A stretch of DNA of 7,683 nucleotides from Candidatus Hydrogenedentota bacterium (GTDB lineage: Bacteria > Hydrogenedentota > Hydrogenedentia > Hydrogenedentales > JAGMZX01): NCBI GenBank assembly GCA_029556545.1, contig JAKQEQ010000095.1, positions 1-7,683 on the forward strand. Reading direction: 5' to 3'. The translations under genes were made by a program, and so were the position numbers. A model generated the notes under the pieces. That model was not told where the DNA came from. It did no database searches and saw only the letters and a list, made by a program, of their open reading frames with translations. Of this stretch, positions 886 to 7,217 are shown one piece after another. Each line of letters starts with the position of its first letter. Position 1 is the first letter of the stretch.

Positions 886-2904
886 TTACGTCCTTGCCCC
901 GACGGGCCGCACGCCGCCGCGCGCGAGGAGTCCGTCGAGCTTCCCGCGCCTTACCATGTCGCCGACGACCGCTTCGACCGCGACGACGATCTGCCGTTCA
1001 CCGTTCGGGCCTGTCGTTTCCGTTGCCGTCGCTTCGGTGTTCGGCGCGTTGTTGTTCACGACCACGGAGACGTTGGCGCCGCCCTCGCTCCGCACGCCGA
1101 GCCGGCCAGAGGAATCGCGGGCGAGTGGCATGATCGCCTCCGGCCCGGCTTCCGCGAACACGCCCCCGCGGGCGAACGCGAAGAACTGCGGCTTGTCGTA
1201 GACCTTATTCGCGTACTGGTGGAGGCTCGGCGACGAGTAGACGTTCCCGTCCGCATTCGCCTCGATCGAACCTTCCGCTATACCCGACCCGAGGGCCACG
1301 AGGCCGGACGCTCCGATGAGCGCGAGGCCCGGGACTACCTGCCCTACGGAAATCGCTGTGAGGCCGGCGTTGAGGAGCATCATCGGGAGTTTGTCCAAGA
1401 GTTCGCGCCCCAGTTCCGCGAGACTCATAGCCATCGCTTCGCCCGCGTTCGCGCCGGAGGCCAACGCCTCGCCGAGCGACTTGAACGAGTCGACAAACGC
1501 CTGCTTGCCGAATTCGCCGAGGGCGTCAGAGACGAGCGCGAGGCTCGCCGCAAGGCGTTCGGAAGCATAGGCCGCGCTCTCGATACCGTCGGCGATCGAC
1601 GCGTTGTCCGTGCCGAGGCCGCCTTGGTAGGTCGTGGTCGGGCCGGTGCCGCCCTGGGTGGAGAATCCGCCCATCTTGGCTACGCCGAGCGGCCCGGAGC
1701 CCTGCGTGCCCCCGAAGATGATGTCGCTCGCGGTCGGCGCGCCGCCCCCGGTGCCAGTCCCGCCCCCGGTGCTCCCCAACGGCGGCGGTGGCAGCGCCCC
1801 CGCGGGGGTTGGCTTAGCCTCCCCGGACCGATACTGCGCTGCCTGCTGGATCTGGAGAATTACCAGCTTGCGGTTGGCCTCCGCAAGACGCGCCTCGATC
1901 TCAAGCATGCCCGAATTCAGGTACGGGAGCACGCGAGCGTCGGCGGTCATGGCCTGTTCCCGGAGCTTCCCAAGCTCGGCTTCGAGACGGGCTCGATCAG
2001 CGGTTACTCGGGCGATGGCGGATGCGACGTCGCCCCCGCCACCCAACGCATCCTGAACGTTCCGCCGAGCCGCGGCCTCGTCCATATTCGCGTTGAACAC
2101 GTCGAGCATGCGATTGACGAGCGGGAGGAAATGCTCGCCGAGTTCGGCAAGCGCCCCTTTGAAATTGTCCATCGCCGTCGACCACTTGCCGGAGGTCGTT
2201 TCGGCGGTCTTGTCCATCATCCCGTAGAACCGCCCGCCTTCCTCCGTCGCGGCCTTGAACGCTTCGGTCACCTCGTCGGCCGAGACGCCGCCCTGTTCCA
2301 TGCGCTTCTTGAGGTCGGCCATGCTTTCGCCGGTCTTTTCGGAGATCGTGAGGAGCGGGTTGAACCCGGCGTTGATGAGCTGGAGGAGGTCCTGCCCCAT
2401 GAGGCGCCCGGTAGACTGGATCTGTCCGAACGCCCGCGCGAGGGAGGAGAGAGCGGCGTCGTCGCCCATCGACACGTCGCCGAGCATGGCGAGCGTCGGC
2501 ATGATGCGCTCGGCCTCGATGCCGTACTGCGCGAGCATTCGCGCCGCGGACTCAAGGCCTTCGAACGAGAGCGGCGTCTCCGCGGCGTAGGTGCGGATCG
2601 CCTCGAACATCTTCTCGCCCTTGGCCATGTCGCCCAAGAGCACGCCCCAGGAAATCTTCGCCTTCTCGAACCCGGCCGCGAGGACGATCGATTCCTTCCC
2701 GAGGTCGATGATCGCGCGGGCGGTCGCCTGGGTCGCGCGGACGGCGATGTCGGCGATCGTCGTGAAGCCCGCGATGCGCTTGGCCACGTCGGTGAACCCG
2801 GCGTCGGCGCCGCGCGCGGCGGCGGCCAGGCCGTTGAGGTCTCCGGTCGCCTTCGGGGCTCCGTCGACGCGCGCGCTCATGACGAGCGACGTAATTTCAG
2901 GCAT
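886..2904 (-). CDS. Tail tape measure protein
   Basis: This 672-residue protein sets tail length and is threaded inside the tail tube; at infection tape measures are ejected with the DNA. Residues 1-25 (MPEITSLVMSARVDG) match the usual opening of tape measures. Residues about 80-260 carry the conserved N-terminal tape measure domain: PLSFEGLESAARMLAQYGIE at 111-130, SLARAFGQIQSTGRLMGQDL at 153-172 and LINAGFNPLL at 176-185. Residues 300-358 are helical and likely coiled coil. Residues about 365-430 are a Gly/Pro/Thr-rich linker. Residues 505-545 are hydrophobic. The C-terminus has the hallmark GGVFAEAGPEAIMPLARD at 580-597. I chose ATG 2904 because AAGGAG sits 7 nt upstream; ATG 2880 lacks a Shine-Dalgarno, although it forms an ATGA overlap with the chaperone stop. 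From 2904 the gene overlaps the chaperone frame by 28 bp. The stop is TAA at 888-886. The protein is shorter than lambda gpH (853 residues), suggesting a shorter tail. Confidence 0.95.
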   Translation of the reverse strand: MPEITSLVMSARVDGAPKATGDLNGLAAAARGADAGFTDVAKRIAGFTTIADIAVRATQATARAIIDLGKESIVLAAGFEKAKISWGVLLGDMAKGEKMFEAIRTYAAETPLSFEGLESAARMLAQYGIEAERIMPTLAMLGDVSMGDDAALSSLARAFGQIQSTGRLMGQDLLQLINAGFNPLLTISEKTGESMADLKKRMEQGGVSADEVTEAFKAATEEGGRFYGMMDKTAETTSGKWSTAMDNFKGALAELGEHFLPLVNRMLDVFNANMDEAAARRNVQDALGGGGDVASAIARVTADRARLEAELGKLREQAMTADARVLPYLNSGMLEIEARLAEANRKLVILQIQQAAQYRSGEAKPTPAGALPPPPLGSTGGGTGTGGGAPTASDIIFGGTQGSGPLGVAKMGGFSTQGGTGPTTTYQGGLGTDNASIADGIESAAYASERLAASLALVSDALGEFGKQAFVDSFKSLGEALASGANAGEAMAMSLAELGRELLDKLPMMLLNAGLTAISVGQVVPGLALIGASGLVALGSGIAEGSIEANADGNVYSSPSLHQYANKVYDKPQFFAFARGGVFAEAGPEAIMPLARDSSGRLGVRSEGGANVSVVVNNNAPNTEATATETTGPNGERQIVVAVEAVVGDMVRRGKLDGLLARGGVRPVGART

Positions 2905-3637
2905 CCCCTCGCTCCTTCGCTGCCCCCCGCACGGAAGGCCGCGTCCATCGCCATGATCGCCTCGACCTCGAACGCGTCGAGTGCGACCGCCGTCACCGCC
3001 TGCCAGTCGGCAAGATCGCGCCACGTGAGGCGGACCCCGCCGAACCCCTCGCTACCGCCCTGCCGGATTTCCAGCCAGAGCGACCACAGGTACTCGAAGC
3101 CTTCGGGCGGCTTCACCGCGTCCAGCCTTTCGTCCCGCCCGAATCCGTGCCGTTCCTCCAGCTCGAGGATCTGGCGGTTCGTCCCGCCCTCGGGATGATC
3201 GGGATCGGCTGCGGCCTGAAGCCAGGCCGCGAGCCGCGCCGCCTCCGTCAGGCCGCGGAGGCGTTCCCAAAAAAATTGGCGCGGTTGAAAATGAAGCCGG
3301 CCGCGCGGTCCGCGAGTTCCGGGTACGCGAGATAGAGCTCTTTCGCCTTCGCCTGGCTGAACGGGAATTCCTTCCCGTTCTCCATGAGGCCGCGCCAGCC
3401 CTTCGTGCAGCGGGCGAGGAGTTCGGCCGACTGTTCGCGCACCTCTTCCGGCGAGAGCGCTCGCCCGAGGGCCTTGTTGCGCGCGTCCTGTTCGGCGCGC
3501 GCGGCCTTGTAGACGCCGGAGTCCATGCCGAAGAGCACGAGCGCAGCGCCCGTGTCGGCCTTCGTCACGGGGTCGAGGAGGACGAGCTCGACGCCCGCCT
3601 CGGCCCGCTTCACGCTGTCGAATCGTCCGATTTCCAT
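2877..3637 (-). CDS. Tail assembly chaperone, long -1 frameshift product (GT-type fusion)
   Basis: After codon 123 of the short chaperone a -1 slip at T_TTT_TTT would re-read base 3269 and continue for 130 codons without a stop (WERLRGLTEAARLAAWLQAA...) to TGA at 2879-2877, giving about 253 residues. I checked the extension base by base from 3269 through 3171 and read the rest from the sequence. It has no convincing start of its own: a GTG at 3116 lacks a Shine-Dalgarno. The extension is coding-like, with EGFEYLWSLWLEIRQG and LTWRDLADWQAVTAVALDAF segments resembling the T part of phage chaperones. In lambda, the rare GT fusion recruits tube subunits through T while G coats the tape measure. 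The place between tail tube and tape measure genes is the standard one. The frame arrangement is directly visible; the frameshifting itself is inferred. Confidence 0.88.
3240..3275 (-). promoter_or_regulatory. Programmed -1 ribosomal frameshift signal (T_TTT_TTT plus stem-loop)
   Basis: Read on the minus strand, seven T at 3275-3269 form the heptamer T_TTT_TTT in the correct register (AAT TTT TTT, Asn121-Phe122-Phe123). It is followed by a 5-nt spacer GGGAA (3268-3264) and a perfect 8-bp stem, CGCCTCCG (3263-3256) with CGGAGGCG (3247-3240), enclosing the 8-nt loop CGGCCTGA (3255-3248). The zero-frame stop TGA falls inside that loop. Heptamer, short spacer and stable stem are the three classic parts of a -1 signal. 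No clear upstream stimulatory Shine-Dalgarno was seen. Transcriptional slippage on the T7 run is an alternative route to the same product. Confidence 0.88.
3248..3637 (-). CDS. Tail assembly chaperone, short product (G-type)
   Basis: A 129-residue protein starts at ATG 3637, preceded by a GGGGAGAGGG purine run acting as Shine-Dalgarno, 11 bp after the tail tube stop. The stop TGA is at 3250-3248. The N-terminus (MEIGRFDSVKRAEAGVELVL, then LLDPVTKADTGAALVLFGMD) is the small beta-rich domain typical of phage tail assembly chaperones, followed by a helical part (LSPEEVREQSAELLARCTKG at 61-80). Such proteins are made in excess, bind the tape measure during tail assembly and are absent from the finished virion. 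Only the last six residues (GNASAA) lie after the slippery codons, as in lambda G versus GT. An upstream in-frame extension stays open to 5410, but it overlaps the tube gene in another frame and is not used. Confidence 0.9.
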   Translation of the reverse strand: MEIGRFDSVKRAEAGVELVLLDPVTKADTGAALVLFGMDSGVYKAARAEQDARNKALGRALSPEEVREQSAELLARCTKGWRGLMENGKEFPFSQAKAKELYLAYPELADRAAGFIFNRANFFGNASAA

Positions 3638-3648
3638 GCCCTCTCCCC

Positions 3649-4827
3649 TTACGCCAGCTTGTTCCATTTCCAGTTCACGAGGCCCGTGGTCGTGTCGTAC
3701 TCGACCTGGAACGGGATGCGGAGCGTGATCGCCTCCTCCGCTTCCTGGTCCTGCGGTACGTCGATGAATATCCGCGGGATGTCGACCGCGTAGCCCGTGG
3801 CGCCGTCGGGGTCCATGAGCACGAGGCCGAGCGAGACGCGGGTCTCCGCGAGGGCCTTCGTCCAGAGCGCGGTGTCGACGAGGTGCGCGCTCATTTCGCC
3901 CGAGAGGTTCGACTGCCCGACCGCGATGCGGTACGGGTCCGCGCGGAACACGGAATCGACCGGCCGCGCGCCGTTCACGAGGTTGAGCGACAGGGCGGAA
4001 ACGATCGCCGTCGGCACGCCGTCCATCCGGAGTACCGCGAGCGCGTCGTTCGCGCCGATCGGCTTCGTGGTCGTGGGTCCCGAGTACCCGGCCGCGAATG
4101 CACCGGCCTGCGGGCCGTTCATGCTCTTGCACACGAAGTCGAACTGACCCGTGACGAGCTGGTCCGGGGCGAACGCGAGCGACAGCCGGTCGGCCACGCC
4201 GCCCAGGAACTGCCGGTACGCCGGAACGTCGAGGTTGCCCTTCTCGAAGGCGATGCTCTTTTCGGTCGTGCCGGACACGAGAGTGGCCATCTTCGTCACG
4301 CTGATTCCGGTCTGCGACGTGCACGCGGCCAGGGTCGATGCGCCTGCCACGTCCTTCGCTTCGCCGAGCGTGATGAGATTCGCCGTCGCGACCGTGACCT
4401 TGAAGAACCCGTTGTTCGCGACGTAGCCGCCAGTGAACCCGGCGACCTTGATCCAGTCGCCCGCGACGAGGCCCGCACCGATGCCCGTGGCGGCCATGGT
4501 GTTCGTCGCGCCCGCGACGACGGTCGTCGAGAGCCCGGTGACGGGCGTCCCGGCCGCGGCCCACGCGCTCCGGCAGACGGACTCGAGGAAGTCGTCCTGG
4601 CTGCCGTAGGACAGCTCGAACGGGAGGCCGAACGTCGGGCGTTTCAAGCCCCCGCGGCCCGAGGCGACGCCGCGGTCGCTCCGCCACTCTCCGGAGCGGA
4701 GCGTCGAACGCGCGAGCGCGCCGGCCGCGGATCCCCGGACCCTGTCTTTCGTGTAGGTCGTCCCGGAGGGCGTACCCCACGCCGACTCCTTGACGTGCGC
4801 TATCTGAATTCTCGCGCCTTCGGCCAT
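3649..4827 (-). CDS. Major tail tube protein
   Basis: A 392-residue protein expected to polymerise as stacked rings that form the tail tube. The N-terminus (IQIAHVKESAWGTP at 7-20), SGEWRSDRGVASGRG at 45-59 and LPFELSYGSQDDFLESV at 68-84 match by eye the conserved start of phage tail tube proteins of the Phage_TTP type. Residues about 95-165 look like a beta-rich insertion (AGDWIKVAGFTGGYVANNGF). The C-terminal part (PRIFIDVPQDQEAEEAITLR, then IPFQVEYDTTTGL) returns to the tube-fold pattern. It is larger than lambda gpV (246 residues), mainly because of inserted beta domains. A GGGGAGG Shine-Dalgarno lies 9 nt before ATG 4827, in a 15-bp gap after the tail terminator gene. The stop is TAA. 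Its position before the chaperone pair supports the call. Confidence 0.9.
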   Translation of the reverse strand: MAEGARIQIAHVKESAWGTPSGTTYTKDRVRGSAAGALARSTLRSGEWRSDRGVASGRGGLKRPTFGLPFELSYGSQDDFLESVCRSAWAAAGTPVTGLSTTVVAGATNTMAATGIGAGLVAGDWIKVAGFTGGYVANNGFFKVTVATANLITLGEAKDVAGASTLAACTSQTGISVTKMATLVSGTTEKSIAFEKGNLDVPAYRQFLGGVADRLSLAFAPDQLVTGQFDFVCKSMNGPQAGAFAAGYSGPTTTKPIGANDALAVLRMDGVPTAIVSALSLNLVNGARPVDSVFRADPYRIAVGQSNLSGEMSAHLVDTALWTKALAETRVSLGLVLMDPDGATGYAVDIPRIFIDVPQDQEAEEAITLRIPFQVEYDTTTGLVNWKWNKLA

Positions 4828-6788: not shown

Positions 6789-7217
6789 CTAGACCCGGAT
6801 GCCGATGAAGGTCACGGTGCCGCGGTCGGCGGCGTTGGCCGCGTCGACCTTGACGGCGTCGCCGGCGGCGAGCGTGAGGCGGGCCGCGTTGGCGACGACG
6901 GCCCCCGCGGACATGTGGGTCACGGCGCCGTCGGCCGCGCAGGCGATGGCGGTGCACATGGCGTCCGAGCCCTTCTGCGGCGTGATCGCGCCGCCGCCGA
7001 CGGTAGCCTTCGCCCAGACGATGATGTCGACGATGCGCATGGCGAACGGCGCGACGAAGGCGGTCGGGGCGTCGGTGGCGTCCGCGGTGATGTCGTAGGA
7101 GATGATCACGGGCGCGTAGTCCTGCGTCTCCTTGAGCGAGGACCCGAGCTGCGCGGCCTGCGCGTCCGGGTTCATGACGTCGATCTTCTTGGCCTGGTTC
7201 TCGGTCAGTCTCGACAT
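6789..7217 (-). CDS. Uncharacterised head-region protein, candidate capsid decoration protein
   Basis: A 142-residue protein with an excellent Shine-Dalgarno (AAGGAGC, about 6 nt before ATG 7217) and stop TAG at 6791-6789. After a polar N-terminal tail (MSRLTENQAKKIDVMNPDAQ) the rest is predicted from its pattern to be beta-rich: SYDITADATDAPTAFVAPFA, MRIVDIIVWAKATVG, then short alternating strands ending in RGTVTFIGIRV. No catalytic motif, signal peptide or membrane segment is visible. Two cysteines lie close together (AMCTAIACAA). I do not recognise a named family. Its place right after the coat gene, its size and its beta content are those of head decoration or fiber proteins, but this is inference. 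Confidence 0.8.
   Translation of the reverse strand: MSRLTENQAKKIDVMNPDAQAAQLGSSLKETQDYAPVIISYDITADATDAPTAFVAPFAMRIVDIIVWAKATVGGGAITPQKGSDAMCTAIACAADGAVTHMSAGAVVANAARLTLAAGDAVKVDAANAADRGTVTFIGIRV

Follow-up and report, generated by a model that had tools for sequence, protein, structure and literature searches.

The question raised by this locus is how two overlapping frames in a phage tail gene module are expressed, and in particular whether ribosomes pass from the first into the second by a programmed shift. The whole stretch of DNA analysed, referred to here as the window (7,683 nucleotides), had been given a preliminary description in which a compact -1 frameshift cassette on the minus strand held the zero-frame stop codon inside the loop of its stimulatory hairpin. 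Our analysis argues that the locus very probably represents a programmed -1 ribosomal frameshift yielding the tail assembly chaperones G and GT. The basis for this reading is the sequence anatomy, the gene order, a conserved frame relation, the slip site, the stop position and the hairpin, and it was decided mainly by comparison; the hairpin alone is only modestly unusual.

Gene neighbourhood and the two frames

The contig is a siphophage-type head-to-tail module lying entirely on the minus strand, in which the end of a major head protein gene is followed by genes for the adaptor, head closure, Neck1, terminator and tube proteins, and then by G, T and the tape measure gene. The G-like short chaperone (3248..3637; 129 amino acids, ATG at 3637) matches phrog_313, tail assembly chaperone, with an E-value of 1.3e-14. 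The T-like extension in the -1 frame (2877..3269) is the 130-codon open frame previously described, running from WERLRG to a stop at 2879-2877, and matches PF23812 Phage_TAC_18 (E 1.7e-12) well over the curated cut-off of that family; the predicted GT fusion is 253 amino acids long. Directly upstream of G is the tail tube gene (3649..4827; PF18906 Phage_tube_2, E 9.7e-29; phrog_290) and directly downstream of T is the tape measure gene (886..2904; phrog_9959, E 5.6e-48; TMP_3, E 3e-23), the ATG of which, at 2904, is overlapped by the end of the T frame. The place between tail tube and tape measure is the classical one for G/GT. This neighbourhood, the family matches of G and T, and the frame relation and slip site of the relatives together support the G/GT frameshift that had been suggested.

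One alternative is that T is translated independently from an internal start. The first in-frame start codon of T is a GTG at 3116, 153 nt beyond the slip site, which would yield a 79-residue protein. However, initiation there would remove the conserved RLRxLTEA start of T, and the first in-frame start of T differs in place among relatives and never precedes the conserved part. We consider independent translation extremely improbable; the downstream segment has no in-frame start codon up to that GTG. For annotation, it is relevant that the related phage records examined either give T as a separate hypothetical protein or omit it.

We note that a 142-residue protein without a PHROGs match is encoded between the major head protein and adaptor genes (6789-7217, minus strand); judged by its position it is perhaps a head decoration protein. 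The window contig carries phage genes only; it may be part of a prophage, or else come from a phage that was binned together with the host. When relatives of the locus were sought in 68 genomes of the host order and phylum, only the window itself was found, and the phage is therefore not common to those host relatives. Scans with G alone, with a tape-measure segment and with a Salmonella phage chaperone found no relatives.

Anatomy of the cassette

Read directly, the minus strand runs CGC GCC AAT TTT TTT GGG AAC GCC TCC GCG GCC TGA CGG AGG CGG. The slippery heptamer T_TTT_TTT (3269..3275), which would allow a tandem tRNA-Phe slip in the -1 direction, is in register for such a slip and ends the upstream chaperone frame but for the 21 nt that reach to the end of the stop codon. 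It is followed by a 5-nt spacer, GGGAA (3264..3268), and by stem 1, in which folding and stem analyses pair the 5' arm CGCCTCCG (3256..3263) with the 3' arm CGGAGGCG (3240..3247; folding and inverted repeats) at 8 of 8 positions. The 8-nt hairpin loop CGGCCTGA (3248..3255) contains the zero-frame stop TGA at 3250-3248. For the heptamer in register, the spacer, the perfect 8-bp stem and the TGA in the loop, the preliminary description was exact to the base. A second strong hairpin, detected by folding and as inverted repeats I5 and I8, lies at 3206..3236. Neither strand of the 7,683 bp has another T7, and 0.12 would be expected in the window. Hairpin 1 taken alone is modestly unusual in this GC-rich window (p about 0.03 by dinucleotide shuffling), and under a synonymous-codon null the synonymous choices in its 3' arm in the window are unremarkable given the encoded amino acids (p 0.28).

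We infer from these features that slipping occurs, that the hairpin stimulates it and that the proteins act as a G/GT pair. Most ribosomes would read ...RANFF and then GNASAA before terminating at the UGA, and their product would be the 129-residue G. In some, two tRNA-Phe on U_UUU_UUU would both re-pair one base back; these ribosomes would go on to make ...RANFF-WERLRG... and hence the 253-residue GT. Lying 5 nt downstream, the GC-rich hairpin most likely halts the ribosome for a time while the heptamer fills the P and A sites, which would make slipping more frequent. On the lambda model, the tape measure would be bound by the G part and the tail-tube subunit by the T part.

Conservation in near relatives

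The near clade comprises six distinct relatives (L019, L023, L024/L025, L026, L045/L046 and L056), which are 50-57% identical in T where this was measured. All six have T_TTT_TTN at the same place and a stop at exactly +21, be it TGA, TAG or TAA, inside a hairpin that starts 3-6 nt past the heptamer, and the stop-in-loop layout noted for the window is also conserved in this clade. L019, a Spirochaetaceae metagenome contig that is 54% identical in T, has T_TTT_TTA, a differing 5-nt spacer, an identical 8-bp stem and a differing 8-nt loop that also holds TGA. The viral contigs L023, L024/L025, L026 and L045/L046 have T_TTT_TTC, T_TTT_TTA or T_TTT_TTG and a 6- to 9-bp stem in the same place, with the stops TAG, TAA, TGA and TAA respectively. 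A pattern search constrained only by the codons for RAN, by T6 and by five bases within the 5' arm returned 15 stretches, every one a G/T locus of the same kind with its stop at +21; the search added the near member L056 and, as far members, the L047 group and L053.

In the near clade the U6 hexamer, the stop position and the hairpin are conserved and the seventh base is free, being T, A, C or G. With respect to the co-variation of T7, spacer and stem that was to be checked in homologues, the hexamer, the place of the spacer (constant among relatives, with variable sequence) and the hairpin are kept, but the seventh T is not, and covariation in stem 1 taken alone was not significant in a shuffle control on seven sequences. 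Stem 1 has one double compensatory change, C-G to G-C, in L023. The synonymous-codon null gave no support for selection on the stem in the near clade. Part of the conservation of the stem may reflect protein sequence, because one arm is coded in two frames. We note that CGCGCCAA (3276-3283, minus strand), just before the heptamer, is identical in the window, L019, L024, L026, L045 and L020, a Pseudomonas juntendi plasmid prophage, and that this identity exceeds what the RAN residues require; building it into the pattern search brought further members to light.

Another explanation for the fusion of the frames is transcriptional slippage, in which a U added at the T7 run of some mRNAs would let ribosomes read straight into T. 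The run is present and one added U would fuse both frames; however, in near relatives the T6 is succeeded by A, C or G, and the A3T3 or A3T4 of others is not long enough to allow slippage. In many bacteria, A/T runs are seen to be selected against from a length of about nine (PMC1088944), and a run of about nine or more, long enough for transcriptional slippage, was found neither here, with seven Ts, nor in the near relatives, with six. The downstream hairpin and the register are in keeping with ribosomal slipping, and we regard transcriptional slippage as very unlikely.

The loop of hairpin 1 may also take part in a pseudoknot. In one register, loop 1 can pair with downstream columns 53-58 at 6 of 6 positions in L019 and L024, at 5 of 6 in L023 and L026, and at 3 of 6 in L045 and L056, with two double changes among the relatives. 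This register was the best of 112 on six sequences; with L056 added, the joint permutation p was 0.08. The data are only suggestive of a loop-downstream pseudoknot in some relatives. In the window, TCAGGCCG (3219-3212), the 3' part of the second hairpin, complements loop 1 at 8 of 8 positions in a register unlike that of the relatives. That strand is also part of the much stronger second hairpin (3206-3236), and a pseudoknot competing with that hairpin is possible in the window.

Distant relatives and exceptions

If the preliminary description was right, the frame relation should persist in relatives, and it does: more than 12 distinct loci keep it and have their slip site at this RANF(F/L) motif too. 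Far relatives keep the -1 relation at this motif with T_TTT_TTC, T_TTT_TTG, A_AAT_TTT or A_AAT_TTC. This bears on the explanation that a sequencing error or the decay of a gene produced the split. Sequencing often errs in homopolymers, and the contig is a small piece of a draft assembly; however, the same relation recurs in these loci from independent sources and with differing seventh bases, which leaves that explanation with an almost negligible probability.

The hairpin is less widely distributed. Phages of Salmonella, Klebsiella, Pseudomonas, Acinetobacter, Vibrio and Stenotrophomonas have T_TTT_TTC with stops 6-105 nt away and are mostly without a comparable hairpin, and since in several members of the family a good hairpin is lacking and the stop lies 51-105 nt off, the hairpin is not a feature of all. 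The loops of L047 and L053 are 17 and 18 nt long and the 3' arm is shifted relative to the stop, lying in other codons, yet it still complements the 5' arm; in L033 and L034 a stem of unrelated sequence again encloses the stop. These four loci hold the stop in the loop of stems that differ in sequence or loop length. Hairpin shuffling p-values across these relatives ranged from 0.002 to 0.09, and the synonymous-codon null supports selection on a stem in L033 and L034 (p 0.05 and 0.01). Selection on a stem is supported because of these nulls and because stem placement differs in L047 and L053. The slip site is thus kept family-wide, whereas the hairpin with the stop in its loop marks only part of the family.

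The exceptions to the -1 relation or to the standard site fall into two groups: L002 and L003 use another frame, and L034-L042 have a non-standard site. L002 and L003 are IMG/VR contigs (3881-4303) with a homologous chaperone in which T is in the +1 (or -2) frame, at GAG TTT TTT CGC TGA; they are identical over the 1 kb compared and count as one observation. Their UUU_CGC is similar to UUU_CGU, where influenza PA-X has its +1 site (PMC3498833). If the shift is indeed +1, the direction of frameshifting would have changed within one chaperone family. The related contigs L034-L042 keep the -1 relation, but their site, just ahead of the G stop, is C_AAT_TTT_A and departs from the X_XXY_YYZ pattern; there a single tRNA in the P site may slip, on T_TTT. 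The site is followed by a 9-bp stem whose 15-nt loop holds the TGA. We also note that L013 (PP511318.1, Dulem virus 31) is labelled Microviridae, yet is 35.8 kb long with tail sheath, tube and tape measure genes; its taxonomy line looks wrong.

Comparison with known systems

The slip site of lambda is G_GGA_AAG. The present locus resembles lambda in its place in the tail operon, the -1 direction, the short and extended products and the order before the tape measure, and differs in having T_TTT_TTT and proteins matching phrog_313 and PF23812. The lambda gpG/gpGT pair and the conserved tail-assembly-chaperone frameshift of tailed phages have been reviewed (PMC5009743). T-run slip sites are known from P2 E/E+E' (T6G), from Smp131 orf27/27.1 (T7G) and from related prophages (T7C), the latter two with the all-T heptamer itself (PMC3931495); these are P2-like myophages, however, and the text of that paper makes no mention of a stop lying in a hairpin loop. 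The claim that an all-T heptamer is a neat variant is tempered: it is the sole T7 of the window and in register, but its seventh base is not conserved and the T7G of Smp131 is a precedent. In the siphophage SPP1, a putative -1 shift at UUUUUUC has been published for the tail chaperone gp17.5/gp17.5* (PMC6316719); there the seventh base is C, and the passages concerned describe no stimulator.

Outside phages, the SARS-CoV-2 ORF1a/1b shift has its zero-frame stop five codons past the slip site, and stop distance affects frameshifting (PMC8168617). As in the present locus, the zero-frame stop belongs to the stimulatory structure; the differences are a eukaryotic ribosome, a U_UUA_AAC heptamer and a pseudoknot, with the stop in stem 1 and not in a hairpin loop. 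No single part of the cassette is unprecedented, since U6/U7 tail-chaperone sites have been published and a stop inside a stimulator is known in coronaviruses. The kind is already known; this locus adds a member to it, one whose compact layout is clade-wide.

The stop codon in the loop

Ribosomes in the zero frame would melt the stem and terminate seven codons past the slip site. The 21 nt involved are shorter than a ribosome footprint, so a following ribosome could not occupy the heptamer while the first one terminates. It is no more than possible that the stop in the loop sets the G:GT ratio. The SARS-CoV-2 stop lies within stem 1; frameshifting drops when this stop is displaced or deleted, and part of the loss is regained under weaker initiation (PMC8168617). 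Given this precedent, the earlier suggestion that a link between termination and unwinding could tune G:GT is, by analogy, reasonable. A more specific proposal, which we regard as rather doubtful, is that with the stop held in the loop (or in a re-pairing pseudoknot) termination would clear the hairpin, which would refold before the next ribosome arrives, and G:GT would become insensitive to loading.

Geometry is a sufficient rival explanation for the layout. If the dual-coded overlap is kept short, the stop comes to lie about 20 nt beyond the slip site, and a stimulatory hairpin, which has to start 5-8 nt beyond that site, then encloses it; we lean slightly towards the stop in the loop being such a by-product, with no regulatory role, which is compatible with the frameshift itself. 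Stop distances in annotated tail-chaperone frameshifts average 26 nt (PMC10885494), far relatives with stops at 6 to 105 nt presumably work as well, and the stop will often fall within any hairpin that begins 5 nt past the slip site. The geometric explanation sits less easily with a stop at exactly +21 in the near clade and in the divergent L047, L053 and L043, despite changing stop identity, and with the loss of frameshifting when the stop is moved away in SARS-CoV-2 (PMC8168617).

Our literature search found no paper in which a phage frameshift hairpin carries the stop in its loop, although such papers may exist; a direct test of stop-placement tuning was found only in a coronavirus. If refolding after termination does buffer the G:GT ratio, the locus would be a bacterial counterpart of the coronavirus proposal. 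The cassette of about 36 bases is compact, self-contained and evolutionarily conserved, and as each of its elements (stop position, stem, heptamer) can be changed without the others, it would be well suited to asking in bacteria whether stop placement tunes frameshifting.
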